Shown one piece after another: positions 432 through 33,412 of a DNA stretch of 41,447 nt (the first letter of the stretch is position 1; every line of letters starts with the position of its first letter). Under the pieces are notes generated by a model. The model was not told the origin of the DNA. It saw nothing but the letters and a program-made list of their open reading frames with translations, and did no database searches. The position numbers and the translations under genes are program-made. This stretch comes from Micropruina sp. (GTDB lineage: Bacteria; Actinomycetota; Actinomycetes; Propionibacteriales; Propionibacteriaceae), in contig NZ_JAPUED010000107.1 in NCBI RefSeq assembly GCF_027492755.1, positions 1-41,447 on the forward strand, written 5' to 3'.

Positions 432-3744
<3,313 letters not shown>

Positions 3745-4624: not shown

Positions 4625-4664
4625 ATTCTGTCGGCCGGTCTCGTCGACACCCTCGGTTGCCTCC

Positions 4665-4735
4665 GCTGATTGAGCTTGTCGAAATCCCTTGTCCCGTATG
4701 GGTCTCGACAGGCTCGACCGACGAGCGTTTTGATC
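4665..4735. repeat. REP-1 repeats after licT
   Basis: Two inverted REP-1 units (TTGAGCTTGTCGAAA near 4670 and GGTCTCGACAGGCTCGACC near 4700) follow licT. I see no T-tailed terminator here; the inverted units may fold at the operon end. Confidence 0.6.
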
Positions 4736-4737
4736 CT

Positions 4738-4965: not shown

Positions 4966-5065
4966 GTCCACCCTCGGATACCGGTGGTCCCGGGCTTACC
5001 CGGGATCTCGTCCGGAGCGCTTGCTGGCTGTGGACCCCCCGGGAGATCCCGGCGTTCGCCGGGAC
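4966..5065. repeat. REP-3 repeats between the duplicated blocks
   Basis: Hairpin-type units CCCGGGCTTACCCGGGAT (near 4988) and AGATCCCGGCGTTCGCCGGGA (near 5043) belong to the REP-3 family. No gene seen. Confidence 0.65.
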
Positions 5066-5094
5066 GACGACAGCCATCTCGCCGGTCTCGCACG

Positions 5095-5195
5095 TCCGGT
5101 TCGCACGTCGGGGGACGGTTCTTCCGCGTTCGAGAATCGCACGCCGAAGAACCGTCCCCGGACATGCGAACCGAAAGGAACCGTCCCTGAACTGG
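5095..5195. repeat. REP-2 repeat cluster (GGGGACGGTTCTT family)
   Basis: GGGGGACGGTTCTT near 5110 and its inverted partner GAAGAACCGTCCCC near 5145 form a palindrome; a third shorter copy (GGAACCGTCCC) follows near 5180. The same family recurs at 5675-5775, 29290-29310, 37872-37946 and 39015-39185. Confidence 0.75.
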
Positions 5196-5325
5196 AAGGG
5201 CACTGTTCCCGAGGCGGACGGGCTTGGCGGCGGCCGGCTGGATTGGAGCCGATGGGCGGTTTGCCGGGCGGCAGTGGCACGGGAGGGTGCCAGGCAGTTG
5301 AGGCGTGCGCCACGAGCGGGCGTCC

Positions 5326-5553
5326 GGACGTGCGGAGAGCCGGGTCGTGGACGCTCCTCCTGCGTCCTGACCCGGCTCGATCCGTCTTCACCGCTGTGAG
5401 CAGTTTCCCCCCGCCGTTTCCGCGTCCCCCCGAACGCGGTCCCGGTAGCTGCTGTGGCGGCTGGCCCCCCGACCTGAGAAGAACTCTGCCGGATCGTCCT
5501 CAACGGTTTGTAAAAGCAACCTCAAGGTGAGCCCAAGGTCCGGTCGGGATCGG
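5326..5553 (+). repeat. 228-bp direct repeat, copy 2
   Basis: Second copy of the block at 4738-4965. Identity stops sharply at both ends: the left flanks differ, and past the right end GGTCC in copy 1 meets CCCTG here. The lack of divergence suggests recent duplication or gene conversion. Confidence 0.95.
5399..5493 (+). ncRNA. 6C-like small RNA candidate, copy 2
   Basis: Same C6-loop hairpins as the candidate at 4811-4905, in the second 228-bp repeat. If the first is a genuine 6C RNA, this is a tandem second gene for it. Confidence 0.58.
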
Positions 5554-5569
5554 CCCTGCCACCCGGCAC

Positions 5570-5775
5570 AGGTCGTTCCAGGCTTGACCCCGGGATCTTC
5601 GTCCAGCGTGGTCAGTGAGTGCTGAGATCCCGGCGTTCGCCGGGATGACGACAACCCGTCAGCCGATCTCGCATGTCCGGGGACGGTTCTTCGGCGTGCG
5701 ATTTTCGAATGTGGAAGAACCGTCCCCCGGCGTGCGATTTTCGAATCTGGAAGAACCGTCCCCGGGTGTGCGAGA
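5570..5775. repeat. REP-3 then REP-2 repeats before the giant gene pair
   Basis: REP-3 units lie at about 5580-5650 (including GATCCCGGCGTTCGCCGGGA). REP-2 units follow at about 5680-5770, with GGGGACGGTTCTTC in one orientation and two GAAGAACCGTCCCC in the other, separated by a repeated GTGCGATTTTCGAAT. The cluster abuts the 3' end of the gene at 5782. Confidence 0.75.
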
Positions 5776-10407: not shown

Positions 10408-13400
10408 GATTCGGCTCCTCAGCGAAGGCCAGGCAGTAGTCGTCCCACAGCGGTGAGGTGAAGTCGGGTTGGACGCCCATCACCTCGGCGAAGCTCGGGT
10501 CGCCGTTGCTGCCGGCGAATTTGCGTTCGCACGAGACTTCGACCGACGCCGAGAAGCAGAACACCTTGACCTTGACGGTGATCACGGCCCGGCCGACCAG
10601 CTTGCCGCTGGGGAAGTCGTAGGTGAGCGAGAGGTAGAGCTCGATGGAGGCGCTGATCAGGCCCAGCACGTCCACCTCGCCGCGCAGCCGGAAGTAGGCG
10701 GTCAGCGAGCCTTTGTCGGCTTCCATGCGCAGGTAGATGCCGAGCGCGATCGACACCGAGCCGGACGCCACCCCCAGATTCACCGACAGATACGCCCCGG
10801 CCTCCAGCCCGAGCTCGAGCACCTCCAGGCCGCGCGGCGAAAGCCGGATGCCGAACCAGCCACCACCGCCCAGGCACATCACTGCCAGGTTGAACGGACG
10901 CTCCCGGGTGCAGAAGCCGAAGCCGACCGAGACGATGTCGCCCAGGAACGGCACCCGGACGTCGGCGGCCAGCGACATGTTCGACAGGCTGAACACGCCG
11001 ATCGCCAGGTTCGGCAGCTCCAGGGTGAATCCGGCCACCACGCCGTCCGGGGCGACGTCGACGTAGGGCGGGTCGGAGAAGCCGTCCAGCGGGATCAGCT
11101 GCTTGATCCGTTCGACGAAGCTCAGGATGCCGACGAACTCGATGTTGCCGACGGCGGCGTCCACCTCGACCTTGCCGGAGCTACCCGCCTTGAACGACAG
11201 GTGGTCGAACGGCAGCTTCATCATCGGCTCGCCCGGCGGCAGGATCAGCCCGAAACCACGCAGCTCGGCGAGCACCTCCGCCTTGGGATGCGCACCGGCC
11301 TGGCCCTCCACGGCCAGGGTGAGGCCCTTCTTGGGCAGGGTCAGGATCGGGGCGTCCTTCGGCCAGGACTGCAGCGTGGGCTGCCACTTGAACGAGAACC
11401 GGGCGTCGGTGACGGCGGTCGCGATGCCCTGGACGAAATCGATCACCGACTGCACCATCTCGACGTCGGTGGCCGCGGTGCGCAGCGCGGTGACGAGCGC
11501 GGTGAGCCGGTTCTTCGCCAGCGGGGTCAGCTTGGCAGCCGCGACCTCGACCGCGGTCAGCGCGTTGGCCAGGTTGGTGAGCGCGGCAGCGAGTTTGCCC
11601 GGTGCCGCGGTGAGATCGCCGGGAGCGTCGATGATCGCCTGCAGCACGCCGTCGGCAGCGGTGATCACCGGGTTGACCAGGTCGGCCGCGCTGTTGGCGG
11701 CGTCGGTGGCCTTGGCGAGCACCTCGTTGGCCAGCCCGTCGCGACCCTGCGCGATCAGGCCCTTGGCGGTCTCCTTCGCCTGGGCGAGCGCGGCCTGGGT
11801 CTGCTCGGCGGAGTCTTCGACGGTCTGCTTGAGTTCCTTGAGGTCGGCCATCAGCGCCTCGACCTTGGCCAGCGACTCGGTGACCAGGGACGGCGCGTCG
11901 TCGAGATTGACGCCGGCGGCCTCCAGGATGTCGATCAGCGAGACGAAGCCGAACAGCTTGGGCAGCGCGTTCTTCAGGAACTCCTTCGGATTGAAACCGC
12001 CGGACGCCGTGGTGGCCAGGTCACCGACCGGACCCGCGCTGCGGGACAGCCCCTCGATCGGCAACGACGGCGCGATGAAGCCGCCGGCGCCGCCGCTGGA
12101 GGCACCGTCCTTGCCGAAGCCGAGCGTGGTCGGGGTGGTCAGCGCCGCCCACAGTTGCCCCGGGTTGCCGGCACCGAAGCCGTGCTGCAGCCAGGCGTCC
12201 GCGTAACCGAACTCCTGAGGGCCGGTCGGGTTCATCCGTTCGACGGCCGGAATGGTCGATCGGCCCTTCACGAAGGACGGCACCGCGGTGCCCACCTGCG
12301 GCGTCCCGGTGAAGGTCAGCCCGACGGTCGGCACCGAGGTGTCCTTGCCTCCTGGCTCGGACGGCACGAACGAGATGCTCTGGCCCAGGCCGTTGATCTC
12401 GGGGGTGCCGGCGTAGGCGTCCTTCGGATTCCCGTGCGGCCACGGTGCGTGGTAGTGCTCGGCGACCCAGACCAGCTGGGCCGGCAGCTTCACCTGGCGA
12501 TCGTCGCGGTCGACGCAGTGCAGGACGAAGTGGAAGGGCTGATCGCCGACCTCGACCAGAAAGAACCAGTCCTGCTGAGCAGCCGGGTCCGGGGACAGCG
12601 TGGGCGTGATCGTCGGGGTGATCTCGACCCGTTTGAACGGCATGTCGAGCGCCGAATAGGTTTTCACCGGTTCGCCGACGACCAGGAATTTGCGCTGGTA
12701 GAGGCCGGCGCGCGGGTTGGTCTTGTCCTTGATCTTGCGTTCGGTGACCTTCACCATGGTCGCCCGATGGCCGAACGGGAACAGGTAGCCGGGGTAGGCG
12801 ACCCGGACGTACTGGTCGCGTCCCATCGGTGCCTCGTGGTCCCAGGACAGGATGGACGCCATTCCGGGTTGCTGCTGCGACCAGGGCAGCGTCAACCATT
12901 GGCCGTGCAGGTCGAGCCAGGCTCCCAGGCTGGACAGGTACAGCCGGGTGGCCTCGAACGGTGTCGGGTCGGTGATCTTGCGGCGGTTCCGGGCCCAGGT
13001 CTCCGACGACTGCCGGACCAGCATGTGCCGGTCCTTGGAATCCAGCGACATCCGGAACGGCTGGTCGTCGTGCCCGAACTCGGTGGTCGACCAGTCCGGG
13101 AAGCGCTCCCTGTCGCGGGCCCAGAGGGCCCGCATGGTTTGCGGAACCTCGTCGACCTTGCCGTCGGCACGGCGGCCGAGCCGGGTGTGCCACAGTTCGA
13201 TCGCGGTGTCGGAGGCGTCGGGCACGGGCTGGTTGGCGTGTGTCCAGCCGCTGTCGGCCGACGGCGAGATGGCCAGCCGATAGGGCGCCTCGATGGAGGT
13301 CTCGCCGAGACCCGCCGGACGGCTCAGCTTCTGCGGGTTGCGGAAGATCGGCGGCATCCGGTCGACGGGGATCCGCCAATCGGTGACCAGCTCCTTGATC

Positions 13401-14521
13401 GGAGTGCGCGGATCCGGGCCGCCGAGGGCTGCCCGGACCTGCGCCAGCGTCCGGGCCAGCTGAGCGACACCGGCGACCGTATTGGCAGGATGGATCTCGT
13501 CGGCCGCTGCCGGCGGCGCGGCCGCGGAGTTCAGCAGGCCACCCTCGATCAGCACCTTCAGCTTGCCCGGGTCGAGCAGGATCAGCGCACCGCCGGCGTA
13601 CGGTTCGCCCGGGGTGGCCAGCGGGTGGACGGCCATCGGATGGGTCTCCAGGGCGTCGAGGAAGGCAGCGGTGCTGACCTCGATGGTCGTCCCGGCCGGA
13701 ACCTGGACGACGACCCGGCTGGCGCGGGCGGGAATACCCCTGACGATCGGCGGCAGGGCGACGGCGGTGCCGGTGATCTTGGCCGGTGGCTGCTCGGGAT
13801 GGTTTTCGTTCGGGACGGGCATGTCCTCGCCCGCTTCGCCGTCGTAGACGGCCTCCTCGCCGAGGTGCTGGAAGGGCAGGGTGAAGATCAGCAGACCGGG
13901 TCCTGGTTCGCGCGCGGTCAGCACGCCCGCGTCCAGGTCGAAGCCGCTGGTGCTGACGATCAGCGAGACCAGATCGGCCGACCGGATCACCTCGAAGCTG
14001 TGCTCGACCTCGATCTGCTGCGCCGGTGGGACGGCCAGGTCGCCCAGGTCGGGGAGGTGAATGGGTGTTCGCCAGATCGGGTCGAGCTTGTCGATCGGGA
14101 TCCGGGGATCGAGGACCGGACGGGTGATGACCGGTGTGAGACCGCCGATAGGTAGGCGTTCGACGCGGCGCGGATCGAGCGGCCGCTCTCCGCCGACCGG
14201 GCGCTCCCGATCGGGGATCCGCTCGACGGGGATGCGCTCGATGGGTTGGTTCTCGATCGGCTGCCGCCCGATCGGCTGCCGCCCGATCGGCTGCCGCCCG
14301 ATCGGGGTGCGCTCGATCGGGGTGCGCTCGACCGGGCGGGTGCCGCCGATGGGGTGATCAAGGCGTACCTTCCCGCCGCTCGGGGGAGGGGGCTGTTCCG
14401 GCTCAGCGGGCCGGCGCTTCGTCGCGGACGCGGCGATCTCTGCGGACGCGGCAGCGTCCACGCGCGTGGCCTTCGCCTTGCGCTTCAGGTTCTTGCCGGG
14501 CAGTTCGGTCGATCCGGACAC
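10400..14521 (-). CDS. Giant uncharacterised protein (1373 aa), first gene of a coupled pair
   Basis: Not assigned to a known family. GTG start behind a strong GGAGGAGGT site. Residues 1-60 are charged and disordered (TKRRPAEPEQPPPP). About 60-100 is a pentapeptide repeat (PIGRQ variants) made by a 15-bp tandem repeat. The middle includes a long Ala-rich helical region (roughly 870-1030, with ESLAKVEALMADLKELKQTV) likely to form a coiled coil. The last 250 residues are alternating hydrophobic and glycine-rich (FNLAVMCLGGGGWFGIRL, VSIALGIYLRME), as in an extended beta sheet. No signal peptide is seen. The stop overlaps the start of the 1541-aa gene, which argues for one complex. Confidence 0.87.
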   Translation of the reverse strand: MSGSTELPGKNLKRKAKATRVDAAASAEIAASATKRRPAEPEQPPPPSGGKVRLDHPIGGTRPVERTPIERTPIGRQPIGRQPIGRQPIENQPIERIPVERIPDRERPVGGERPLDPRRVERLPIGGLTPVITRPVLDPRIPIDKLDPIWRTPIHLPDLGDLAVPPAQQIEVEHSFEVIRSADLVSLIVSTSGFDLDAGVLTAREPGPGLLIFTLPFQHLGEEAVYDGEAGEDMPVPNENHPEQPPAKITGTAVALPPIVRGIPARASRVVVQVPAGTTIEVSTAAFLDALETHPMAVHPLATPGEPYAGGALILLDPGKLKVLIEGGLLNSAAAPPAAADEIHPANTVAGVAQLARTLAQVRAALGGPDPRTPIKELVTDWRIPVDRMPPIFRNPQKLSRPAGLGETSIEAPYRLAISPSADSGWTHANQPVPDASDTAIELWHTRLGRRADGKVDEVPQTMRALWARDRERFPDWSTTEFGHDDQPFRMSLDSKDRHMLVRQSSETWARNRRKITDPTPFEATRLYLSSLGAWLDLHGQWLTLPWSQQQPGMASILSWDHEAPMGRDQYVRVAYPGYLFPFGHRATMVKVTERKIKDKTNPRAGLYQRKFLVVGEPVKTYSALDMPFKRVEITPTITPTLSPDPAAQQDWFFLVEVGDQPFHFVLHCVDRDDRQVKLPAQLVWVAEHYHAPWPHGNPKDAYAGTPEINGLGQSISFVPSEPGGKDTSVPTVGLTFTGTPQVGTAVPSFVKGRSTIPAVERMNPTGPQEFGYADAWLQHGFGAGNPGQLWAALTTPTTLGFGKDGASSGGAGGFIAPSLPIEGLSRSAGPVGDLATTASGGFNPKEFLKNALPKLFGFVSLIDILEAAGVNLDDAPSLVTESLAKVEALMADLKELKQTVEDSAEQTQAALAQAKETAKGLIAQGRDGLANEVLAKATDAANSAADLVNPVITAADGVLQAIIDAPGDLTAAPGKLAAALTNLANALTAVEVAAAKLTPLAKNRLTALVTALRTAATDVEMVQSVIDFVQGIATAVTDARFSFKWQPTLQSWPKDAPILTLPKKGLTLAVEGQAGAHPKAEVLAELRGFGLILPPGEPMMKLPFDHLSFKAGSSGKVEVDAAVGNIEFVGILSFVERIKQLIPLDGFSDPPYVDVAPDGVVAGFTLELPNLAIGVFSLSNMSLAADVRVPFLGDIVSVGFGFCTRERPFNLAVMCLGGGGWFGIRLSPRGLEVLELGLEAGAYLSVNLGVASGSVSIALGIYLRMEADKGSLTAYFRLRGEVDVLGLISASIELYLSLTYDFPSGKLVGRAVITVKVKVFCFSASVEVSCERKFAGSNGDPSFAEVMGVQPDFTSPLWDDYCLAFAEEPNHA
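14240..14345 (-). repeat. 15-bp tandem repeat encoding a pentapeptide array
   Basis: Units of the form CCGATCGGCTGCCGC repeat in tandem, drifting to CGATCGGGGTGCGCT at the right. In the 1373-aa gene they encode PIGRQ-PIGRQ-PIGRQ flanked by PIERT, PIENQ and PIERI variants. The unit keeps the reading frame, so copy number can change without breaking the gene. Confidence 0.8.
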
Positions 14522-19842: not shown

Positions 19843-20766
19843 CTATGCGGCGTCCAGGATCGCCATGCCTGCGACCGCCAGCCCGGACGCCAGCCAGCCG
19901 AGCGCGACCAGGGCCCGCCATTGCTCCGGACGGGTCAGCAGCTTCTGGGCTGCCATCACGATTGCGAGGGCCAGGGTCGCCCACCACGGGTGTCCGGCGA
20001 GCATCAGCACCACCATCGCCGGTCCGCTGACCAGCAGGCAGACGACGCCGTGCCGCAGTCCGTACTCGACCGCGGCCGCATCGGCGGAGGGCCCCGCGAA
20101 GCCGACCGGCATGGTGCGGCAGCAGCCGCGCAGCGCACGCCGCTTGATCGGGGTCAGCTCCCAGGCCCCGGCCGCCAGCACCAGGACCGTCAGCGCGGAC
20201 GCCGGAACCGGCCCGGGCATCACCGCTAGCAGCATGCCCGGCCCCAGCCATGCCGCGAGATAGCCGAGGGTGAACAGCGCGAGGGTGCGCTGACGGCGAG
20301 CGCGCCGGGTGTTGAAACCGAGGTAGCGCAGATGCGGGACCGTGGTGGGCAGCATCATCGCGATCACCATCAGCAGCCAGCTGAGCAGCTGGGCATCGAT
20401 CGGGTGCGGGTGGGCGGTGGTGCCGTCTGAGGTATGGTGGTGGCTGGATGGCAGCGCGCCCGCCGGCTCGAACCAGTCGAGGGCCAGGGCGAGTGCCACC
20501 CAGGCGGTTGCGGCGAGCAACATGGCCAGCCATTCGGGGTGTCGGTCCAGTCGGCTGCGGAAATGCTGACGCCAGGAGGGGGTCTCGACAAGCTCGACCA
20601 ACGGTGGATCGGTGAGCTTGGCCGGTGGGAGTTCGGTGGGCGGTTGGGTCTCGACAGGCTCGACCGGCGGTGGATCGGTGAGCTTGGCCGGCAGTGGCTT
20701 GGCGGGCGGCTTGGTCTCGACAGGCCGGGCCGACGGCTCGGTGAGCTTGGTCGGCAGGACGGTCAT
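19843..20766 (-). CDS. DUF2182 integral membrane protein with repeat-derived N-terminus
   Basis: 307 aa. The first about 65 residues are a Pro-rich tandem repeat (units like PAKLTDPPPVEPVET) encoded by REP-1-containing DNA. The rest is a polytopic membrane protein of the DUF2182 family, often called a predicted metal-binding membrane protein: LLMVIAMMLPTTVPHLRYLG, LGYLAAWLGPGM, AGAWELTPIKRRALRGCC, HPWWATLALAIVMAAQKLL. A His-rich loop (SSHHHTSDGTTAHPHP) follows the first membrane segment. The ATG overlaps the tyrosinase stop (ATGA), so the pair is translationally coupled. I infer a possible link to copper supply or location of the tyrosinase. Confidence 0.85.
   Translation of the reverse strand: MTVLPTKLTEPSARPVETKPPAKPLPAKLTDPPPVEPVETQPPTELPPAKLTDPPLVELVETPSWRQHFRSRLDRHPEWLAMLLAATAWVALALALDWFEPAGALPSSHHHTSDGTTAHPHPIDAQLLSWLLMVIAMMLPTTVPHLRYLGFNTRRARRQRTLALFTLGYLAAWLGPGMLLAVMPGPVPASALTVLVLAAGAWELTPIKRRALRGCCRTMPVGFAGPSADAAAVEYGLRHGVVCLLVSGPAMVVLMLAGHPWWATLALAIVMAAQKLLTRPEQWRALVALGWLASGLAVAGMAILDAA
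20578..20745. repeat. 63-66 bp tandem repeat built on REP-1, within the DUF2182 gene
   Basis: Almost three units, each starting GGTCTCGACA(A/G)GC(T/C) and continuing through GGTGGATCGGTGAGCTTGGC. The third unit is diverged. The repeat keeps the frame and encodes the Pro-rich N-terminus (VELVET, VEPVET, RPVET). Confidence 0.8.
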
Positions 20767-22190
20767 TGGATCAGCAGCGCGATGGTGCCGATCACCACCT
20801 CGGGCTCGGGCGGGGCGTCCTCGGCGATGGGATTGACCGGGGCGAGGGTGGCGCGGAACTGCTCGGCGTCCCAACGGTCCTCGGCGTCCAGCCGCTGCAC
20901 GACCGCGGTGATGTCGAACTGGTAGCTGAGTTCGTGCTCGGCGTCCGGCTGTTGTGATTCGAGCAGGCCGAACAGGGGCAGCGTGCCGACCAACACAGGT
21001 TCGCCGCTGGTGGGGTGCAGGAAGACGCCCCATTCGGCGCTGGGCAGCCGGTCGGCACGGATGTGTTCGACCGACACCAGGAACCGCTGGGCGGCCCGGG
21101 TGGTCGGCGCGTCGGTGGGGAAACTGACCTCGGTGGCGTCCTCGGTGAGTCGCACCGGTGTCTCGGCCGCCCCGACCCGTTGCGGTGGACGGCGATCGCG
21201 CGGTCGTTCCGGGCCGCGGTCGGGAGTGGGCATCTGTCCTCCTGCGCCCGCCGAGGCGGGGATCGAGGTGTCGGCGTAGCTGTAGCCGAGGTTGGCCAGG
21301 TTCAACACACTGCCGCAGGTCGGCTCGATGCGCAGGCCGGAGGCGTCCAGGAACTCGAAACTGCGGTCGACGAAACGGCTTCCGGCCGGGTCGAGACCGA
21401 TGCCGGTGTTGCCGCGCCATACTTCCCACAGCCGGTCGAGGTTGGCGTGATGCAACCAGAAGATGGCGTCGCCGGCGGCCTGGTTGAAGTCGCTCATCTT
21501 GCCGGTCGGCCCGCCGACGAAGACGTGCACCGAGCCGTGCGGGGTGATCTCCAGCGGTCCGGGAATGGCGTTCGGGGCGCCGGCATGGTTGAAGCCGGTC
21601 TCGGTGCCGGCGAACGCGGGGTCGAACTGGCTCGAATAGGGAGTCGCGAAGAACCACCCGGCTGCTGTGGTCTGGGCGGGCTGCAGCCGGGCCAGCCGCG
21701 GTTCGGGCTCACCGCGGAACCGGACGGGTGAGTTCACGCCAAGGTCGCGGGCCGGGTCGAACAGTGGGTTCGGGGAACCGTCGTCAAGGGTCGGGGCGCG
21801 GAACGCGGGCGGCAGCGAGCTGGATTCGGGACGGTCGTAGTCCCAGTAGGGGAGTGCCCAGGTGGCCTTGGTCTCGTCGTCCACCTCGTCGGATTCGGCG
21901 ATGATCGAGCGGCAGATCGCTTCGAACGCGTGGAGGTACATCCGATGCCAGGGCAGGAAGTACCAGCAGAAGTGCTGACAGGTGTTGCGCAGCCCGTCGT
22001 TCGGGTCGGGAAACATGCCGTGCACCTGGGTGTGGTGGCTCCACCAACGATGCTGCGGGCCGCTGTTGCGCTTCAACTCCCGGACGGCCACCGCATAGGC
22101 GGCGATGATCGGATGCGTCGGCGCGCCCTCGGGCTGCAGCGTGTAGACGTCCTGACGAACGAGGGCTTCGGCCTGAGGCGGTGTGAGCAT
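20763..22190 (-). CDS. Tyrosinase / polyphenol oxidase-like type-3 copper protein
   Basis: 475 aa. Type-3 dicopper oxidase expected to hydroxylate phenols or oxidise catechols to quinones. CuA ligands: H57 (THHQVHG region), H73 and H82 in CQHFCWYFLPWHRMYLHAFE. CuB ligands: HGSVH plus FWLHHANLDRLWEVW. A C-terminal beta domain (about 330-475) resembles the plant-type PPO tail rather than the short Streptomyces MelC2, and no MelC1-type caddie gene is adjacent. No signal peptide is visible, so it should be cytoplasmic unless co-exported. DUF2182 membrane protein gene overlaps its stop. Substrate unknown. Confidence 0.9.
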   Translation of the reverse strand: MLTPPQAEALVRQDVYTLQPEGAPTHPIIAAYAVAVRELKRNSGPQHRWWSHHTQVHGMFPDPNDGLRNTCQHFCWYFLPWHRMYLHAFEAICRSIIAESDEVDDETKATWALPYWDYDRPESSSLPPAFRAPTLDDGSPNPLFDPARDLGVNSPVRFRGEPEPRLARLQPAQTTAAGWFFATPYSSQFDPAFAGTETGFNHAGAPNAIPGPLEITPHGSVHVFVGGPTGKMSDFNQAAGDAIFWLHHANLDRLWEVWRGNTGIGLDPAGSRFVDRSFEFLDASGLRIEPTCGSVLNLANLGYSYADTSIPASAGAGGQMPTPDRGPERPRDRRPPQRVGAAETPVRLTEDATEVSFPTDAPTTRAAQRFLVSVEHIRADRLPSAEWGVFLHPTSGEPVLVGTLPLFGLLESQQPDAEHELSYQFDITAVVQRLDAEDRWDAEQFRATLAPVNPIAEDAPPEPEVVIGTIALLIQ

Positions 22191-24345: not shown

Positions 24346-25374
24346 CTAGATCCCTGTACGTGGTGTGTAGGTCACCCGCTTGCCGGTGCCATCGGTGTAG
24401 CTGATGGAGCGCACCAGGCGATGTTTGGAGGAGTCGTAGGACACCTCTTGGTCGGCCAGGACGAAGTACCAGGCGGTGCCGTCCGCCATGGTGCCGACGG
24501 TCCAGCGCGCCTTCTCAGTCGGCGTGATGGTGACGGCCGAGGCGTCCGCGGGGAGCTTGCCGATCGAGGCGCGCCGTCCCGAAAGGGAGGTCCGCACATC
24601 GACCTTGTCGGGACGCCGCGCAGGCTGGGCTGCCCAGTAATCACCGGCCGCGTTGAACACGCCCCAGACGTCGTCCTGTGTGTCACGGAAGACGGTGAAA
24701 GTGGTGCCGTCGACGGCCAGATCGAGGCGGGGTAGTACCTCGTCGGGGGCGGTCCGCGCCAGGCCGTCCGACCCTATCCAGACGAGGCGGCCCGTCGCGT
24801 CCTTGGTGCCGGAGAGCCAGGTCGCGGTCAAAGTGAAGCCGGTCTGTGCGTCGGCCCAGTGCCGCACATCACCCCAGACGTGACCGACGGTCTGCACCGC
24901 GCGCACCACGTCGGGAATCAACCTGACCTCGAGGTGATCGTGCACCCGAACGGTGAAGAACTGGCTAGGCGGGGCGACGTAGCTGTGGTGAGTGGTTGCA
25001 GCGGGCCGACCCTCGACCTCGTCGGTCACGGTGATCAGCACTTGAGTAGCAGAGCTCTCGGCGCGGACCGTGACCGTATGGTGCGCCGCCGGATCGCCCC
25101 CCGTGAAGCCGAACACGCCGGTCGTTGTGCCCGACCGCACCATCGCGCTGGCCAGTGGCGCCGGCTGCACAGTGACCGGACGCGGAGCGAGTGCGAACCA
25201 GCCCAGTAGGCCGGCGGTGGTCACGGCCGCGCACGCCGCCACCAACTGGCGGATGCTTCGCTGCCGGTGACGACCCTCGACCAGGGCGATCACGTCCATC
25301 GCCCGGACGTTCGGGTCGGCCTCTTCGGCGAGTTCACGCAGGCCGTCACGCAGCCTGTCCTCGGCGATCCTCAT
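24346..25374 (-). CDS. Membrane-anchored protein coupled to an ECF sigma factor (putative anti-sigma/sensor)
   Basis: 342 aa. Short cytoplasmic N-terminus (1-42, RIAEDRLRDGLRELAEEADP), one membrane segment (about 43-62, LVAACAAVTTAGLLGWFALA) and a large extracytoplasmic beta-rich domain. The ATG overlaps the stop of the sigma gene (ATGA), so the two are coupled. The topology and position suit an anti-sigma factor or sensor for the neighbouring SigE-type factor. I see no HxxxCxxC zinc anti-sigma motif, so the mechanism is inferred. Confidence 0.8.
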   Translation of the reverse strand: MRIAEDRLRDGLRELAEEADPNVRAMDVIALVEGRHRQRSIRQLVAACAAVTTAGLLGWFALAPRPVTVQPAPLASAMVRSGTTTGVFGFTGGDPAAHHTVTVRAESSATQVLITVTDEVEGRPAATTHHSYVAPPSQFFTVRVHDHLEVRLIPDVVRAVQTVGHVWGDVRHWADAQTGFTLTATWLSGTKDATGRLVWIGSDGLARTAPDEVLPRLDLAVDGTTFTVFRDTQDDVWGVFNAAGDYWAAQPARRPDKVDVRTSLSGRRASIGKLPADASAVTITPTEKARWTVGTMADGTAWYFVLADQEVSYDSSKHRLVRSISYTDGTGKRVTYTPRTGI

Positions 25375-25883
25375 GACAGGTCTCCTTCCCTCATTGGGGC
25401 GTATCGGGCGCGCATGCCGGCCAGTGCCCGCGAGCAGGCGGACTTGACCGCACCCACGCTGATGCCCAGGCATTCCGCGGTCTGCGCCTCGGTGTAGTCG
25501 TCGAAATAGCGCAACACGACGATGCTGCGCTGCCGTGGGGTGAGGGTGGCGAGCATCCGTGCCACCTCGTCGCGGTCGCTGACCCGATCATGGGGCCATT
25601 CGCCGGACGGCGGATCCGCCCATTCGGCCGGGACCGGACGGCGCCGGCGCCGGTGGTCGATGCTGAGGTTGACCAGCACCCGGCGGGCATAGCCGGTCGC
25701 ATCCTCCAGCCGGACACGCTCCCAGGCGGCATAAGTCCTGGTCAACGCCTCTTGGACGAGTTCATCGGCGAGATCCTGACTGCCGGTCAGCAGGTACGCC
25801 GTCCGGCCCAGATAGGCCGACGACGACGTCACGAAGGCGGTGAACTCCGCCTCCCGGCGCGACCGTGCGCCCATCCCGACCAT
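25371..25883 (-). CDS. ECF RNA polymerase sigma factor (actinobacterial SigE-type)
   Basis: 170 aa, with sigma region 2 (YLLTGSQDLADELVQEALTRTYAAW, then GYARRVLVNLSIDHRRR) and region 4 (LTPRQRSIVVLRYFDDYTEAQTAECLGISVGAVKSACSRAL). There is no region 3, as in ECF sigma factors. Start chosen at the ATG at 25883 (MVGMGARSRREAEF), which sits behind GGAGGAG; the longer GTG frame would swallow that site. The membrane partner overlaps its stop. It follows the lanthipeptide-type genes on the same strand after a 182-bp gap that contains a purine-rich tract, so it may be an independent unit or control them. Confidence 0.92.
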   Translation of the reverse strand: MVGMGARSRREAEFTAFVTSSSAYLGRTAYLLTGSQDLADELVQEALTRTYAAWERVRLEDATGYARRVLVNLSIDHRRRRRPVPAEWADPPSGEWPHDRVSDRDEVARMLATLTPRQRSIVVLRYFDDYTEAQTAECLGISVGAVKSACSRALAGMRARYAPMREGDLS

Positions 25884-26065
25884 GCACTCTCCTCCATCGA
25901 CTACCACTCTCTACGCAGGAGCGCGCCGAATGGTTGCTCGTCGGCGAGAAAGAAGAGAGAAAGAAGGAAGGAAGTGGCGGTCGTGGTCTGCGCCGGGTTG
26001 TCGCGCGCAGCCCGTCTTGCGCTCATCGCCACCGCAATCGGGTGATGCGGTTCAGATCGCTGCCC

Positions 26066-29000
26066 TCAGCCGGACAGCAACAGTCCGCGCTCGGTGCGCA
26101 GCAGCAACTGGATCAGGTGCGGCTCGGAGGGATGCCCGGGGCCGACCATCCGGTTGTGGTGCATGTGCACCAGGCTCGGCAGGATTCCGGCCACCGATCC
26201 GTCCAGGTCGCCGGTCCGCTCCGCCGCGGCGAGAGCCAGGCCGTACGGCGTGACCGACGTCCGCAACGTCTGGAGCGCGTCGGCCAGTGGCCCATGCGCC
26301 GGTTCGCCGCTCAGCAGGGCACGCAGCCGGGTCTTGCGTTCCCGGTAATCGGCCCCGGCGGCGCGGCCGACCTGCGGGTCGTCGACCAAGGCGGCCTGCG
26401 TCTCGTAGAAGGTCACCCGCTGGGCCCGGTCCAGCCCGAGCCCCGCCAGCATCACCGCGGTCGACGCGACCAGGGCATCGGTGAGCGGCTGGCCGGGCAG
26501 GCTGAGTAGCCGGCGGACGGCGACACTGTCGGCATGGAAGAGGTCCTCGCACAGCTCCAGCCCGCGCAGTCCGCCATAGCGCTCGAGTTCGCGGTCGTAG
26601 CTGTCCAGCGCGAGCCGCGAGATCCGGCCTGCTTCCAGCAGTTGACCGGCGAAATCGCTCACCTGGGGCAGCAGGTGCCGCAGCAGCAGATCGGGCTCGC
26701 CCTGCCAGCGGATCCGCAGATGCGGCTCGGGATCGCTGTACCGCAGGAAGAACCAGCGCCTGGCGAGCCCGGAATTCTCAGCCATCTCGATCAGGTCGAC
26801 GAGGTGGGTGGTCAGCAATGGCGTGAGTTGCTCGTAGGGGGCGTAGAACTTGGCGAACAGCCAGTCGCCGCCGGGCAACCGGATCCGTTCGCGGACACTG
26901 ACCGGGTGCGCAGTCGGATGGACGCCGCGGATCGGTTCCACGGCCTGGACGGGGAACGCGGCGGGCGTCCGAGCGGGATCGTTCGAGGGTTGGCGGACCA
27001 GCGAGATCACCAATTCGGTCAGGTAGTGGCCATCCGGGCCGGGCAGCCAGGCGTCCCCGATGTCCGGCAGCGCCTCCTCCAGCCGCAGCGTGCCGCCGGA
27101 GTTCTTGAACTCGCGCCGCAACTGCTCGCGGTCGTCGGCCTGGGTGAGATCCAGCAGCAGCCGGTTGTCGGCCACGGTGACGTAGACCCGGTCGGGCAAC
27201 CCCCAGCGTCGGCGGGCCGTCTCGAGTGCGGACGTCACCGCGGCCTGTTCGGCGCCCTGCGACGGCGTCCAGCCGGGCGTGCTGAGTAGCCAACGGGCCG
27301 GGGCCAGCACCGTTCGTCCGACCTGGACGCGGGGGAGCACCGGCAGCGACTGCGCCGGCCCCCAATCGAAGGCCGAGAACTCGGCGGGTAGATGCTGGCC
27401 GACGGCGTCCAGGAACTGGCACACCGGTGGCGCGCCGTGGTGGTTCAGCATGTGCCGCGCGGTCGGACGGAGCCGCACCCCCAGGCTGGCCGACCGCAGG
27501 TAGAGTCGCGCGCCGTCGTGGCCGACCAGCAGATCGGACAGTCCCAGCTGATGTTCGGCGCTGCCGCGTCCGCTGACCACGATCTCGTGCTGGGCGACCG
27601 TCGGCCGGAGCACCACATTCGCGGATCGGGGCGTGGCCGGCAGATACACCACCTCGGCGGCAACCGTGTCGGGCTCGGCTGCGGTCTCCGCGCGGTCCAG
27701 CCAGTCGTAGAAGGCGTCGCCGGCGGAACCGAACAGGTCGGCGAACCGGCCCAGCCAGCGTCCGGCCGAACCGGCGCCCAGATTCGGGCCGAGCACCAGG
27801 GTGAACGCGCCGGCATCCACCGCGGCGGCGTCCGTGGCCAGCAGGAACGCCGACACATCCAGCGACAGTGGGGCATCGGCCGCGTTGCCGGGGGAGAGCT
27901 GCCGTCCGGTCGCCCCGGCCGGCCAGCCGCTGAGGGCGGCGACGATGTCGGTGTCCAAGATGACGTTGCGCCGCTCGTCCCGCAGCGCCTCCAGAGCCAG
28001 GCCCATCAGCGCCTCGGAGCGCCGCGCCTGGGTGCCCGGCTCAAGACCGGACGCCGCACCATGGGTGTGTGGCATCGCGCCGAGTCCGCGGACCGGATCG
28101 AACACCTCGGCCAGCGGCACCTCGTGGTCCGCCCCCCACCGAGCGAGAAATCGCCGTCCGTAGCCGGCCAGGTCGCCGCCCACCGACGGACCGGGGCCCA
28201 CTCGCAGCAGCACCTCGACGGCCTGGGCACACTCGCGGCCCACCTCCGCGGACAGGCCGCGTCCGTCGAGTCCACGAGCGAGATCGGTCTGGAAAGTCTC
28301 GGGGTGGTCATGCAGGACGCGCGCTCGCTCGGTGACTTGGGCGAACACACCGGACGGGGCGTCCGGCCGTCCGGACGCCCCGCGATCACCGATCATCGAT
28401 CCGCGGGGTTGACCGTCGGCGGCGGCGATGGCGGCGGTCAGCTCGGCGGCGGACTCGGCCAGCGACGCATCGGCCCGGCCGATCAGTGCTCGGGCGTCGG
28501 CGCCGGAGGTCGCCGCCTCCCCGGTGAGGGCGGGTGCCAGGTCGCTGTGCAACAGGCCCGCCCGGATCAGCTGCTCCAGCAGGCCGGCCACCTGGTCGGG
28601 GGTTCCGCCGGAGCCGGCGCCCACCCGTTCGACCAACTCGTCGTAGGCGATCCATGATTCGGCCGCCGCGATCGCCAGGCGGGCCGGCTCAGTGGCCCTG
28701 ACGGAGCCCCCGGTCTGGGTCAGCAACCGGTCGCCCACCTCGGTGATCAGCGGGTCGGCCCGCCAACGCAGCCGGGAACGGACGTCCGGGCGGTGCTCGG
28801 CGGCGGCCAGCATGCCGCGCAGCCAGCCCATGTCGGGCCGGGTTCTGGTGCGGTCGCCAGCGGCGAGGCGCAAGTCGGTCCCGGGCGCCCAATCGGCCAG
28901 CGACACCGCCGCGAACGCCCCGTACGGGGTGGGCCGGGTGGTCATCCGGATCAGGTAGCGGGCCAGGCTGGTGCGGGTCCGGGCCGCCTCCTTGGGATCG

Positions 29001-29341
29001 GGGTCGGAGCGCCGCGCCTTCTCCAGCAGGGTCGGGCTGCCGATGGCCAGTGCCCGGACGACGCGGGGGTCGTCCAACGCCTCGGACGGCTCGCGCACCC
29101 ACGGCAGTCGCTCGATCGGAAGCAGCGGCGTCCGGACCGTGACCCAGGGCACGACCCGGTACAGGGCGGTGCTTGCGGGCGCCGCCGTGGGGACCGGGCC
29201 GGATCGGTTCAGCAGTTGGTCCTCGCCGTTGGCACGCGGATCGGACGGGCCGAACGGCGGATCCTCGTGATACGCCAGTCCCTCCGGCGGACCGAAGGAA
29301 CCGTCCCCGCGGTTCAGGACAGCGCGAACATCCGGTCCCAT
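26066..29341 (-). CDS. lanB: Class I lanthipeptide dehydratase (LanB), full length
   Basis: About 1091 aa. LanB enzymes use glutamyl-tRNA to glutamylate Ser/Thr in a precursor peptide and eliminate glutamate, giving Dha/Dhb. The N-terminal glutamylation domain is visible from ALYRVVPWVTVRTPLLP through SLARYLIRMTTRPTPYGAFA to the middle (PPVCQFLDAVGQHL). The C-terminal SpaB_C-type elimination domain begins near GGDWLFAKFYAP, with ARRWFFLRYSDPEPHLRIRW. I chose the ATG at 29341 because it has GTGGAG five bases upstream and overlaps the lanC stop by 28 bp, indicating coupling. The first about 57 residues are not conserved-looking and include a REP-2-derived segment (NRGDGSFG). The full fused form argues for class I lanthipeptide rather than split thiopeptide-type enzymes. 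Confidence 0.92.
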   Translation of the reverse strand: MGPDVRAVLNRGDGSFGPPEGLAYHEDPPFGPSDPRANGEDQLLNRSGPVPTAAPASTALYRVVPWVTVRTPLLPIERLPWVREPSEALDDPRVVRALAIGSPTLLEKARRSDPDPKEAARTRTSLARYLIRMTTRPTPYGAFAAVSLADWAPGTDLRLAAGDRTRTRPDMGWLRGMLAAAEHRPDVRSRLRWRADPLITEVGDRLLTQTGGSVRATEPARLAIAAAESWIAYDELVERVGAGSGGTPDQVAGLLEQLIRAGLLHSDLAPALTGEAATSGADARALIGRADASLAESAAELTAAIAAADGQPRGSMIGDRGASGRPDAPSGVFAQVTERARVLHDHPETFQTDLARGLDGRGLSAEVGRECAQAVEVLLRVGPGPSVGGDLAGYGRRFLARWGADHEVPLAEVFDPVRGLGAMPHTHGAASGLEPGTQARRSEALMGLALEALRDERRNVILDTDIVAALSGWPAGATGRQLSPGNAADAPLSLDVSAFLLATDAAAVDAGAFTLVLGPNLGAGSAGRWLGRFADLFGSAGDAFYDWLDRAETAAEPDTVAAEVVYLPATPRSANVVLRPTVAQHEIVVSGRGSAEHQLGLSDLLVGHDGARLYLRSASLGVRLRPTARHMLNHHGAPPVCQFLDAVGQHLPAEFSAFDWGPAQSLPVLPRVQVGRTVLAPARWLLSTPGWTPSQGAEQAAVTSALETARRRWGLPDRVYVTVADNRLLLDLTQADDREQLRREFKNSGGTLRLEEALPDIGDAWLPGPDGHYLTELVISLVRQPSNDPARTPAAFPVQAVEPIRGVHPTAHPVSVRERIRLPGGDWLFAKFYAPYEQLTPLLTTHLVDLIEMAENSGLARRWFFLRYSDPEPHLRIRWQGEPDLLLRHLLPQVSDFAGQLLEAGRISRLALDSYDRELERYGGLRGLELCEDLFHADSVAVRRLLSLPGQPLTDALVASTAVMLAGLGLDRAQRVTFYETQAALVDDPQVGRAAGADYRERKTRLRALLSGEPAHGPLADALQTLRTSVTPYGLALAAAERTGDLDGSVAGILPSLVHMHHNRMVGPGHPSEPHLIQLLLRTERGLLLSG
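29290..29310. repeat. REP-2-like core at the lanC-lanB junction
   Basis: GACCGAAGGAACCGTCCCCG matches the REP-2 variants near 5180 and 39120. It lies just past the lanC stop and inside the predicted 5' end of lanB, where it encodes GDGSFG. Confidence 0.5.
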
Positions 29342-30741
29342 GTCGGCTCCACGTCGCTCGAGGCACTCAGCAGTGCCAGGCTGACCCCGGCCGCCCCGTC
29401 CAGGACGCCGGGCTGATCGACCTTGTTGTCGCCGGGTTCCATGTTGGCGATGCCCATCGGACGGTCCGGTTCGGCGGCGTCCAGGATCTGCCGGGTCAGC
29501 GCGGACGCCGCCTCGGCGAAGAGCGGCAAACCGGTGTCGTGGTGGAACCGCAGGGTGATCTGCAGCAGCCCGGCCACTCCGTGGCAGAAGGTGGGGGAGT
29601 CGATGCCGCGCCGCTCGACCGGACGCCGGTACACGGCGGCCATCGCCTCGATCGCCAGGTTGCGCAGGTCGGAACGATCCAGCGTCCGGCCGGCCAGGAA
29701 CAGCGCCCGAGCGGCACCCGGGGTTCCGTAGCACCAGGCGTCCCGGCCGACATCGTGCACGGGCAACTCGGCCAGGCCGCCCGGGCCGTGCACCAGCGGC
29801 ACCACCGTCTCCCAGCCGGGCCCGTCATCGCCCAGGGTGACGTGAGCGGCCAGCCACCCGGCCAGCTGGGTCGTCGCCTCCACGGCGTCCTGGGCGCCGA
29901 GACCGCAGTCCACGGCCAGCGCCAGCGCGGCGAGCGGCCCGGGGATGCCGTGGGCCAGGCCGAGGTTGATGTTGCCGGCCGGGTAGTAGGCCCGCTGCTC
30001 ATCGTCGAACAGGCATTCCGGCGGGGTGTACCAGCCGGGGGGCGATCCGGCGTCCAGAGCCAGCGCGGTCAACGCCCGGACGACGAACGGCGCCACCGGA
30101 CGCGCGGACCGGCCGGCGTGCGGCAGCGCGCACAGCAGGACTCCGGCCAGTCCCGAGATCTGGTCGAAGGTGCTCACCGGCATGCCGCGCCGGCCCCGGA
30201 TCCCGGCCGCCGTGGTCAGCGCGTCGTGGGCGATGACGCCGTCCAGTGCAGCGAGCGGTTGGGTCAGGTCGGGGTCGTCCAGCCGGCGCCCGACGAAGGC
30301 GATCCCGGACGAGCCGCTGACCGACCCCATCGGCGGACGGTAGCCGTACCGCAACGCCGCCGCGGTGGACGCCGCCCAGCTGCGAGCCCGGATGGCCCAG
30401 TCTGCACCGGTGTCCACCTCGGCGAGCGCGCCGCACAACAGCGCCTGACCAAGATCACCCTGGGCGATCGAGGTAGGTGCCCAGTGCAGTGCCCGTGGGA
30501 AATTCGTCTGCTGGTCGCACAACTGATTGGCGGTGGCCACGCCGTCCGGATCGGTGCATCGTTCCGCCAGCAGCAGCGCCGCGTCACGGGCCCGGGAGGC
30601 CAGCTCGGCCGGCAGCGGTGAGCGCCATGCCGCTTCCGGCGTGAGTCGATAGTGCTGGATCAGCCGGTGGGTGCGCACCGGTGCCGTGCCTGCGGGGACG
30701 GCGCCGCCCTCGTCGCCGTCCGACATCGGTCCATCCTTCAT
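29314..30741 (-). CDS. lanC: Lanthipeptide cyclase (LanC)
   Basis: 475 aa. Zinc enzyme that adds Cys thiols to dehydrated Ser/Thr to make (methyl)lanthionine rings. Zinc ligands C337 (AWCYGTPG), C386 and H387 (FCHGVAG), and the probable catalytic H264 (LAHGIPG), have the same spacing as H212/C284/C330/H331 in NisC. The fold's repeated helices read NINLGLAHGIPGPLAALAL and GVAGLLQITLRF. Alternative start: the second ATG (MSDGDE), 15 bp in, also has an AAGGA site. The gene lies 72 bp after the third precursor and overlaps lanB. Confidence 0.93.
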   Translation of the reverse strand: MKDGPMSDGDEGGAVPAGTAPVRTHRLIQHYRLTPEAAWRSPLPAELASRARDAALLLAERCTDPDGVATANQLCDQQTNFPRALHWAPTSIAQGDLGQALLCGALAEVDTGADWAIRARSWAASTAAALRYGYRPPMGSVSGSSGIAFVGRRLDDPDLTQPLAALDGVIAHDALTTAAGIRGRRGMPVSTFDQISGLAGVLLCALPHAGRSARPVAPFVVRALTALALDAGSPPGWYTPPECLFDDEQRAYYPAGNINLGLAHGIPGPLAALALAVDCGLGAQDAVEATTQLAGWLAAHVTLGDDGPGWETVVPLVHGPGGLAELPVHDVGRDAWCYGTPGAARALFLAGRTLDRSDLRNLAIEAMAAVYRRPVERRGIDSPTFCHGVAGLLQITLRFHHDTGLPLFAEAASALTRQILDAAEPDRPMGIANMEPGDNKVDQPGVLDGAAGVSLALLSASSDVEPTWDRMFALS

Positions 30742-30813: not shown

Positions 30814-31665
30814 TCACCCGACCTGGCACTTCAGCGTGGGACAGATCCTCTGGCTGAGACATCCGGCATCCACGGTGACCGGACAGTTCCAGTTGCACGC
30901 GGTGATCCTGCAGGTGAGGCACGTCGCGTTGCCGACGGTGTGCCAACAAGCCGCGTTGAGGCAGGTTTCGCAGGTGCCGAGATCGCCAGTGACCGGGATG
31001 ACGCAGCCCGGCTGATGACAGGTTTGACAGGTGGCCTGATCGCAGGTTTGACAGGTGGCCTGACCACAGGTCTGACAGGTGGCTTGGTTGTTGCAGGTCT
31101 GGCAGGTCGTGCCGAAGCAGGTCAGGCAGGTTCCGTTGCCGCAGGTCTGGCATTGGGTGAACCAGCAGGTGGGCGTGTTCGTCGGTAGGCAGCGGGGGCC
31201 GCAGGTGCCGTCGACGGTCGGTAGCTGGCACCCGAGCGGCGTCTCCGGAAGGGTCAGAGTCAGGTCCGTGACGGTGTCGGTGGGGTCGGTCTGATCCGGG
31301 AGGAATCCCCCCTGCAGCCCTGCCCGGGCGTCGATGTTGAATGCGTCGGACGCCGCGGCTGGCCGCGAGTGGACGTAGGCCACCTGGGCGTCCCGGTTCA
31401 GGGCCACCCGGGTGGCATCCAGTCCGACGAAGGGCGGCTGGTCCGGCGAGACCGACTCGACGGTCAGCACGTCCTCGGTGCGGAACTCGACGTAGTAGTC
31501 CAGCGAGGTGTTGAGGTAGAGCCGGCGGTAGCCGTCCCGGTCGCTGTCGCCGAGCAGACCGGAGAGTTCGAAGGAGGCCGGAGCAGGCGTCCCCGGGTCG
31601 TTGATCCGGGAGGCCACGAACGGGTCGGGAGGACGGCCTTCGATGCCGCTGTCGTTGTCGGCCAT
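30814..31665 (-). CDS. Lanthipeptide-type precursor protein 1 (Thr-Cys repeat protein, 283 aa)
   Basis: Probable LanB/LanC substrate. Residues 1-145 contain no Cys and hold a block shared with its two paralogs (about 37-95: GLLGDSD, YRRLYLNTSLDYYVEF, DQPPFVGLDATR). Residues 146-283 carry all 27 Cys, 17 of them in Thr-Cys pairs. A three-copy 8-residue repeat CQTCxQAT lies near 190-215. The tail ends CPTLKCQVG. I start at the ATG behind GAGGAG (MADNDSGIEG), not at the longer frame. A precursor this long is unusual for class I. No double-Gly or other cleavage site is obvious, so the leader/core border is inferred from Cys onset. Alternative: a Cys-rich metal or disulfide protein. Confidence 0.85.
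   Translation of the reverse strand: MADNDSGIEGRPPDPFVASRINDPGTPAPASFELSGLLGDSDRDGYRRLYLNTSLDYYVEFRTEDVLTVESVSPDQPPFVGLDATRVALNRDAQVAYVHSRPAAASDAFNIDARAGLQGGFLPDQTDPTDTVTDLTLTLPETPLGCQLPTVDGTCGPRCLPTNTPTCWFTQCQTCGNGTCLTCFGTTCQTCNNQATCQTCGQATCQTCDQATCQTCHQPGCVIPVTGDLGTCETCLNAACWHTVGNATCLTCRITACNWNCPVTVDAGCLSQRICPTLKCQVG
31009..31107 (-). repeat. 24-bp tandem repeat in precursor 1
   Basis: On the + strand the units read (A/C)AGGT(T/C)TGACAGGTGGC followed by a CTGATCG/CTGACCA variable part. Three or four units encode CQTCxQAT. They allow in-frame gain or loss of ring-forming units. Confidence 0.75.
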
Positions 31666-31696
31666 GGGGCTCTCCTCTCGGTTTCCTGGTGAGGGT

Positions 31697-32599
31697 TCAG
31701 GCGCGGACGATGCACCAGGCCGGGTCGCTGACCGGGCAGCCACAGGTGCTGAACTGGCAGGTGTTGCAGGTATCGCAGGTGACCCAACACGTCTGCGCGC
31801 AGGTGTTCACACAGGTGTCGGAGCAGGTGCTGGCACAGGTGGCGTCGCAGGTGCCCCGGCAGCTCACGCAGGTGCCCAGACAGGTGTCCCAGCACGTCGA
31901 GCAGGTGTCATCGCAGGTGCCGAGACAGCTGGCGCAAGTGGCAGTCTCCACGCAGCCGGGGTCGCAGGTAAGTCGCTGACAGGTCTGGCAGGTGCCGGGC
32001 ATGGTGGCGCACCGCGGTCCCTGGCAGGTCTGGCAGGTGCCGCCGATACAGCTGACGCAGGTGCCCTGATCGCAGGTGGCGCAGGTGGCCTGGTTGCAGG
32101 TGGCACAGGTGCGGCCGCCCTGGGTGGGCCATTGCCCGAAGGTTCCGCCGCCGGGGTTGCCTCGGCCGCCCTGGCAAGGGTCGAAATCGGACTGGCCGAA
32201 GTGCACCGTGACACCGATGCACTGGGCCTCCCAGGTTTCCACGAACGGTGGCAGGACGATCGCGTCCGACACCTCCAGGGCGAATGCGTCGCTCGACGGG
32301 ACCGCGCGCCGCACCCAGTCAAGGGTGGCACCGCCGTTCAGGGTGACCCGGGTGGCGTCCAGGCCCGGGAAGGGAACATCGCCCGGGGCAACGTCGTCGA
32401 CGGCGACCACGTCGTCGGTGCGAAACTCGACGAAGTAGTCCAGTTGGGTGGTCAGATACAGGCGGCGGCAGCCGGCACGATCGCTGTCTCCGAGCAGCCC
32501 GGCCAGGGTGACGACATCGCGGCGCGGACCGCCGGCGACCGTCCGATTGCGGACGAACGGATCCTCGGGGCGGTTCACCAGGTCGCCTGGATCAACCAT
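31697..32599 (-). CDS. Lanthipeptide-type precursor protein 2 (Thr-Cys repeat protein, 300 aa)
   Basis: Paralog of the neighbours. Shared N-terminal block: TLAGLLGDSDRAG, RRLYLTTQLDYFVEFRTDDV, PFPGLDATRVTL. After WEAQC the tail becomes Cys-rich (about 33 Cys from RTCATC on, about 36 in the whole protein). Repeats have the form x-T-C every 3-4 residues (CATCASTCSDTCVNTCAQTC), and a few Ser-Cys pairs are present. It ends WCIVRA. A Gly-rich segment (GGRGNPGGGTFG) separates the leader-like part from the core. AGGAGG lies upstream of the ATG. It sits 31 bp before precursor 1 and 15 bp after precursor 3. Confidence 0.85.
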   Translation of the reverse strand: MVDPGDLVNRPEDPFVRNRTVAGGPRRDVVTLAGLLGDSDRAGCRRLYLTTQLDYFVEFRTDDVVAVDDVAPGDVPFPGLDATRVTLNGGATLDWVRRAVPSSDAFALEVSDAIVLPPFVETWEAQCIGVTVHFGQSDFDPCQGGRGNPGGGTFGQWPTQGGRTCATCNQATCATCDQGTCVSCIGGTCQTCQGPRCATMPGTCQTCQRLTCDPGCVETATCASCLGTCDDTCSTCWDTCLGTCVSCRGTCDATCASTCSDTCVNTCAQTCWVTCDTCNTCQFSTCGCPVSDPAWCIVRA

Positions 32600-32614
32600 G
32601 GTCGGTCCTCCTGT

Positions 32615-33412
32615 TCAGAAGCAGCGACAGGTGTTGCAGTGGGTTTGCAGCACCGTCGGGCAGCGGCCGACGGTTTCGCAGAGGCCAGGATTGCGGGTGA
32701 CCTGACATGCCGGCCCGCAGGTCGCGCCGCAGCCGGTAGGACAGGTGGCACAGGTGCCGGCGCAGGTCGCCGCACAGGTGTTGGCACACGTGGCCGCGCA
32801 GGTGTTGCCGCAGGTGACGTTCTGGGTCGGACAGTCACAGGTACGGCAGGTGTCTGCGCGGCGGCAGGTCTGGCAGGTGCCGCGGCAGGTATCGCAGGTT
32901 CGGCAGGTGGTGCCCTGGGTCTCCCGGCAGGTCAGCGGCTTGCACACTGTCCATCCGCTCGGGCAGTCGTTCGCGGTGGGGCATCCGATGTCGGTCGGGC
33001 AGCCGCCCCAGGACGGGCCTGGACACTCGGCCTCCCAGGTCTCGGCCTGTTGCATCAGCGGCCGTGCCTGCGACGTGAGTGGCTGGACGGCGAACGGATC
33101 GCCGCTCACTGTTGCGGTCCGGACGTAGTCGAGCTGAGCGTCGCGGACGATGGTGAGCCGGGTGGCGTCCAGGCCCTGGAATGGTGGCTGGTCGGGGCCG
33201 ACGTCCTCGACGGTCAGGACGTCCTCGGCGCGCACCTCCACCCAGTAGTCGAGCCGGGTGTTCAGGTACAGCCTGCGCCGGCCCGGACGATCGCTGTCGC
33301 CCAGCAGGCCGACCAGGGTGAGCGCCGGCGGCGGGCCGGCTTTCGGATCACTGATGCGTGCGGCGACGAAGGGGTCGGGCGGGCGCTTGGCGATGTCGTC
33401 GTTCTCGGCCAT
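32615..33412 (-). CDS. Lanthipeptide-type precursor protein 3 (Thr-Cys repeat protein, 265 aa)
   Basis: First gene of the set. Shared block: LVGLLGDSDRPG, RRRLYLNTRLDYWVEV, DQPPFQGLDATRLTI. No Cys until WEAEC (about residue 129); the C-terminal part then carries 29 Cys, 17 in Thr-Cys pairs (CGNTCAATCANTCAATCAGT), ending CNTCRCF. The same N-terminal start MAENDDIAKRPPDPFV as precursor 1 (MADNDS...RPPDPFV) shows recent common origin. ATG with a moderate GAGG site. As the first gene it should be the one closest to the operon promoter; an AT-rich patch at about 33447-33453 upstream is the only promoter-like feature I see, and it is weak. Confidence 0.85.
   Translation of the reverse strand: MAENDDIAKRPPDPFVAARISDPKAGPPPALTLVGLLGDSDRPGRRRLYLNTRLDYWVEVRAEDVLTVEDVGPDQPPFQGLDATRLTIVRDAQLDYVRTATVSGDPFAVQPLTSQARPLMQQAETWEAECPGPSWGGCPTDIGCPTANDCPSGWTVCKPLTCRETQGTTCRTCDTCRGTCQTCRRADTCRTCDCPTQNVTCGNTCAATCANTCAATCAGTCATCPTGCGATCGPACQVTRNPGLCETVGRCPTVLQTHCNTCRCF

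Follow-up and report, generated by a model that had tools for sequence, protein, structure and literature searches.

Three tandem Thr-Cys-rich genes beside lanC and lanB in Micropruina: candidate precursors of unusually long class I lanthipeptides

The window analysed here, a 41,447-nucleotide stretch of a Micropruina sp. genome (contig NZ_JAPUED010000107.1), carries three tandem genes on its minus strand that are followed by a lanC and a lanB gene (Table 1). All three encode proteins with a common N-terminal block of about 100 residues (N-block) and a Cys/Thr-rich tail at the C-terminal end, and over about 110 aa the blocks share 52–63% identity with the block of the first gene. For the third gene we chose the ATG at 31665, which is preceded by a good ribosome-binding site, over the GTG at 31743 that opens a mechanical reading frame of 309 aa. 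The candidate precursors 1, 2 and 3 contain 29, 36 (35 of them in the tail) and 27 Cys residues in total, and their tails hold 17, 26 and 17 TC dipeptides where 5.4–5.9 would be expected, a three- to fourfold excess over shuffled tails that was reached in none of 5000 shuffles for each of the three. The tail Cys residues are mostly 3, 4 and 5 positions apart, and the accompanying Ser and Thr residues are mostly Thr. Intergenic gaps of only 15, 31 and 72 nt from precursor 1 through precursors 2 and 3 to lanC are consistent with an operon. At the DNA level the tail of precursor 3 contains an eight-codon tandem repeat encoding ATCQTC(D/G)Q, and similar 24-bp arrays occur in the other precursor tails, so the tails probably lengthen and shorten by eight-codon units.

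Table 1. Features of the putative lanthipeptide locus, in window coordinates
Feature	Position	Strand	Description
Candidate precursor 1	32615..33412	minus	265 aa; N-block residues 1-104; box DPFAVQ 105-110; tail 29 Cys / 33 Thr+Ser
Candidate precursor 2	31697..32599	minus	300 aa; N-block; box DAFALE 104-109; tail 35 Cys / 42 Thr+Ser
Candidate precursor 3	30814..31665	minus	283 aa from ATG 31665; N-block; box DAFNID 107-112; tail 27 Cys / 35 Thr+Ser
lanC cyclase	29314..30741	minus	475 aa; PF05147 E 1e-39; motifs WCYGTPG, CHG, LAHG
lanB dehydratase, full length	26066..29341	minus	PF04738 E 2e-141 and PF14028 E 2e-48
24-bp tandem repeat	31012..31083	minus	3 copies, 89% match; inside precursor 3 tail
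Similar 24-bp arrays	31799-31854, 32033-32112, 32748-32815	minus	in other precursor tails

The LanB matches to PF04738 and PF14028 span the whole protein, with glutamylation and elimination domains both present. We propose the ATG at 29341, which overlaps the end of lanC, as the start of lanB; the mechanical reading frame begins at 29734. The active-site motifs are intact in either enzyme, LanB carrying RPTPYG, RPDxGWL, HLRIR, ERYGG and VHxxxNR, and LanC, which matches PF05147, its zinc-ligand motifs. The closest solved relatives by sequence are MibB (5EHK) and MadB (9G04) for LanB, with NisB also matched, and MadC (8BYK) and NisC (2G02) for LanC. These observations bear out the preliminary description of the locus, which had reported three tandem paralogous genes with a shared N-terminal block, about 27–36 Cys residues mostly in Thr-Cys pairs, and lanC and a full-length lanB following on the same strand. 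Elsewhere in the window, an ECF-type sigma factor-like protein and a partner protein are encoded directly after lanB and in the same orientation (24346-25907, minus), a pair that is not common to the other loci described below. A tyrosinase-like protein follows at 20763-22190 (minus), its match to NCBIfam MelC2 lying well below the cut-off, and two adjacent very long open reading frames of 1541 and 1373 aa occupy 5782-14521 (minus). The same genome encodes a second LanC-domain protein within a reading frame of about 1117 aa (L033, G000:C61:8000-14500, frame 2272-5625, minus), possibly a class II LanM-type synthetase.

Relatives were sought with the N-block alone as the query, without LanB or LanC. 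Nine further loci were found in Micropruina, Nonomuraea and Streptomyces, namely in Nonomuraea gerenzanensis, Streptomyces sp. NBC_01320, a Micropruina MAG, S. flavotricini, S. griseoflavus, S. sabulosicollis and three genomes of one Streptomyces-like genus, which together with the window gives a family of ten loci and 13 precursors. The preliminary description had proposed such a search as a check on the link between the N-block and its neighbours: no homolog was found without LanB and LanC beside it, and in all ten loci the order precursor(s)–lanC–lanB is kept on one strand with the enzymes directly downstream. The LanC tree firmly groups the window with Micropruina but is not informative on a single clade of the cassette LanCs. 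The family is rare, being confined to the genome of the window among 297 genomes of the class, to two of 147 genomes in the taxonomic family (one of them again that of the window) and to three of 393 in the Streptomyces-like genus. N-block searches of two phylum samples (396 and 376 genomes) yielded no credible new locus, and those of viral contigs and phage records no relatives. One weak match in a further genome (G476, E 2.7e-4), which covers part of the block and lies inside a 1047-aa frame, was left out of the family.

Individual loci differ in their state of preservation and in their surroundings. On the Streptomyces sp. NBC_01320 plasmid an IS66 transposase gene interrupts the cassette lanB, whose C-terminal part resumes downstream (L006, 10213-15039), so that this copy is probably inactive. 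At another locus (L031 in genome G1007, 6975-11755) lanC and lanB seem to be split over several frames, by decay or assembly indels, next to an intact precursor with 23 tail Cys residues. In N. gerenzanensis an aKG-HExxH-type peptide beta-hydroxylase (TIGR04267) is encoded directly upstream of the precursor (L005, 6087-7901), an arrangement that the FDLD cluster of Streptomyces sp. Mg1 shows too, and the long lanthipeptide of this strain may also be hydroxylated.

Beyond lanC and lanB we found no neighbouring gene common across the genera, and no exporter or protease (LanT/LanP) in the shared cassette, which thus consists of precursor, lanC and lanB without a dedicated exporter or protease. 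This lack of a linked exporter or protease would suit an alternative in which the tails belong to Cys-rich metal-binding or disulfide-knotted proteins with CxxC repeats, the neighbouring LanB and LanC acting elsewhere. The TCxTC spacing of the tails fits that pattern as well, CxxC being common in metal-binding proteins. Metal or disulfide binding, however, does not predict the immediate linkage to lanC and lanB in ten of ten loci, nor does it predict two further properties of the family, an FxLD box preceding the tail and a conservation of Thr that nearly equals that of Cys on the side that LanC chemistry needs. With these taken together, we consider this alternative quite improbable.

The first of these properties lies at the end of the N-block. 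In class I leaders the FxLD box is the site at which LanB binds, as described structurally for MadB, where R182 was reported to contact the FDLD motif (PMC12241602). In eight Streptomyces and Nonomuraea homologs the N-block ends with DEFDLD (6/8), DEFDLN (1/8) or DEFDFD (1/8), its terminus reading DEFDLDVR, and these eight thus carry the box expected of a LanA leader; the boxes of the three window copies (Table 1) stand at the same place and are degenerate, as are the Micropruina boxes as a whole (FNID, FALE, FAVQ, FLLE and FAVD). The homologs of Nonomuraea (193 aa) and S. sabulosicollis (221 aa) are among those with the canonical FDLD box. Nine of the ten LanBs of the family retain the counterpart of MadB R182, an arginine that lies in an S-x-R-A-T motif. 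AlphaFold predicts a confident small beta-domain for residues 31-100, with a block-mean pLDDT of about 85-94 from an 8-row alignment, and on this model the N-block of about 100 aa would be a small all-beta domain ending in an FxLD-type box. The block matched nothing in Pfam, NCBIfam or PHROGs, nor in the PDB by sequence profile, and comparison of the predicted beta-domain with PDB folds gave nothing below E 0.24.

The homolog box is also the motif found in Streptomyces sp. Mg1, where an annotated lanthipeptide of the FDLD family reads DDFDLDVR. That family (NCBIfam NF038155; WP_037792650) resembles the present one in its FDLDVR box, its C-terminal Cys core, the adjoining LanC and full-length LanB and its actinobacterial hosts, but its precursors have about 60 aa and 4 Cys and lack an N-terminal beta-domain, whereas those described here measure 193–307 aa with 11–35 tail Cys. 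The NF038155 profile matched neither five of the Streptomyces and Nonomuraea homologs at E 10 nor the window copies at E 1, while it does match the control peptide (L036).

Selection on the tails was assessed by comparing the window with its orthologs on contig L009 of the Micropruina MAG. Between these orthologs 91–93% of the tail Cys and 83–89% of the Thr/Ser residues are kept, with Thr-Ser exchange allowed, and Thr or Ser directly before Cys is retained in 27 of 29 and 17 of 17 cases, compared with 37–47% for the other tail residues. Synonymous differences are seen in 7 of the 26 conserved Thr codons and 11 of the 32 conserved Cys codons of one pair, and in 10 of the 28 and 9 of the 25 of another, and dN/dS in the tails ranges from 0.24 to 0.59 over three ortholog pairs. 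The Thr-Cys pattern is therefore held at the protein level despite the DNA repeats. Joint conservation of Thr and Cys would also fit a beta-solenoid or antifreeze-like fold with disulfides, for which no lanthionines are needed; insect antifreeze proteins, too, use TC repeats. Full-length precursor 2, however, gave no confident solenoid or other tail fold in AlphaFold (pLDDT about 30, weak evidence in itself given the shallow alignment of 8 rows), the repeat lengths are irregular with gaps of 3, 4, 5 and longer, and such a fold accounts neither for the FxLD box nor for the linkage to LanB and LanC, which makes it the kind of explanation that we would hardly credit.

A further argument comes from the geometry of the potential rings. 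According to a published bridging rule, a Cys joins the nearest preceding unbonded Ser or Thr at least three residues away, which reproduces 92 of 100 known patterns (PMC11251773). We applied this rule to the 13 tails with ring spans of 3-8, the upper limit of 8 being our own choice. Every one of the 277 tail Cys residues finds an unbonded upstream Ser/Thr partner at 3-8 residues, placing the matching Ser/Thr of a LanA core before each Cys, while 300 trials in which Cys positions were fixed and all other residues shuffled paired 189 on average and 202 at most. Read backwards, the same tails pair 216 of 277, and the pairing signal points in the direction that LanC requires. Pairing is complete in each tail and is matched by at most 4 of 300 shuffles in any one of them, the 13 tails being related and thus not independent trials. 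A Thr directly followed by Cys does not give the usual ring geometry, so that each ring would have to reach on to the following Cys.

We consider it very probable, judging from the sequences, that the three genes encode unusually long class I lanthipeptide precursors whose tails serve as the substrate of LanB and LanC. The idea of the preliminary description that these enzymes turn the tails into thioether chains is supported and strengthened, though not proven, by the conserved cassette in ten of ten loci and by three lines of evidence that go beyond it, the FxLD leader box, a correctly placed Ser/Thr for every Cys and the conservation of Thr along with Cys. The degenerate boxes of the Micropruina copies, the missing exporter and leader protease of the cassette and the adjacent Thr-Cys pairs speak against it. 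In the proposed pathway the precursor would dock through its FxLD box on LanB, at the leader-binding domain; LanB would dehydrate the Thr and Ser residues of the tail via the glutamyl-tRNA route, whereupon LanC would add the Cys thiols to the upstream dehydro-residues. If modification is nearly complete, the products of the window would contain about 27–35 small rings per molecule, in tandem or interlocked, mostly of methyllanthionine and with a typical Thr-to-Cys span of 4-5, and ring numbers across the family would range from about 11 to 35 depending on the gene. In-frame duplication of eight-codon TC units would change the length of the tail. The beta-domain may hold the precursor in position, keep it soluble or silent, or stay attached as an anchor.

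The fate of the modified tail is a separate matter. Some RiPP families use multi-core precursors, and the internal 8-aa repeats would fit a tail that LanB and LanC modify and that is later divided into several short lanthipeptides; the chemistry would be that of the long-product reading, and only the end product would be another. Between the repeats, however, no regular protease-site linker is visible, the bridging rule predicts rings that overlap along the tail, the loci have no protease gene in common, and the Streptomyces relatives have shorter tails, most of which lack repeats, so we regard such processing as unlikely. The product could serve as an extracellular or structural polymer, rigid and protease-proof, or act as a bacteriocin of unusual size. 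That the mature molecule combines a folded beta-domain with a tail of 150–190 aa and about 30 thioether rings, and acts not as a small antibiotic but as a structural or surface polymer, rigid and protease-proof, is a tentative proposal that we put forward with some reserve.

Compared with known systems, the enzymes and the leader logic are already familiar, while the precursor length and the predicted beta leader domain and ring number are new. Nisin, microbisporicin (NAI-107) and maddinglicin are made with homologous LanB (NisB, MibB, MadB) and LanC (NisC, MadC) enzymes with intact motifs and FxLD-type recognition, but from short precursors with few Cys. A leader domain that precedes the modified core, here a predicted one, is shared with the Nif11/NHLP-type leaders of prochlorosins and proteusins, from which the present domain differs in its predicted all-beta structure and in matching no leader family of Pfam or NCBIfam; those systems also use other modifying enzymes, class II LanM in the case of the prochlorosins. 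Short TC-rich cores may occur in some Bacteroidota class I lanthipeptides. These share the class I enzymes but come from another phylum and have an LxLxKx5L leader motif, often a GG cleavage site, and precursors within 30–120 aa (PMC7268733).

Precursor length also bears on why the family has gone unnoticed. The RODEO survey considered precursors of 30–120 aa only (PMC7268733), and a survey from 2024 those of up to 100 aa, with 78 aa given as the largest known lantibiotic precursor (PMC11251773). At 193–307 aa the present family falls outside the 30–120 aa range, a bound that is a survey filter and not a chemical requirement, and it is invisible to both surveys because precursors above 120 or 100 aa were discarded (PMC7268733, PMC11251773). 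In the open-access papers that our search covered, we found no description of long or many-ringed class I precursors. Owing to such length filters, other long precursors may be hidden beside lanB and lanC genes.

The bridges of known lanthipeptides number seven at most, eight being predicted for a single case, and the 2024 survey suggested that function and not synthesis may set the upper limit (PMC11251773), a question that the present family makes directly testable. If our interpretation is true, the number of thioether rings per ribosomal product would rise from the known seven to about 30, and a class I LanB/LanC pair would work its way along a tail of 80–200 residues, which would point to ribosomal synthesis as a way to long polypeptides laddered with thioethers.
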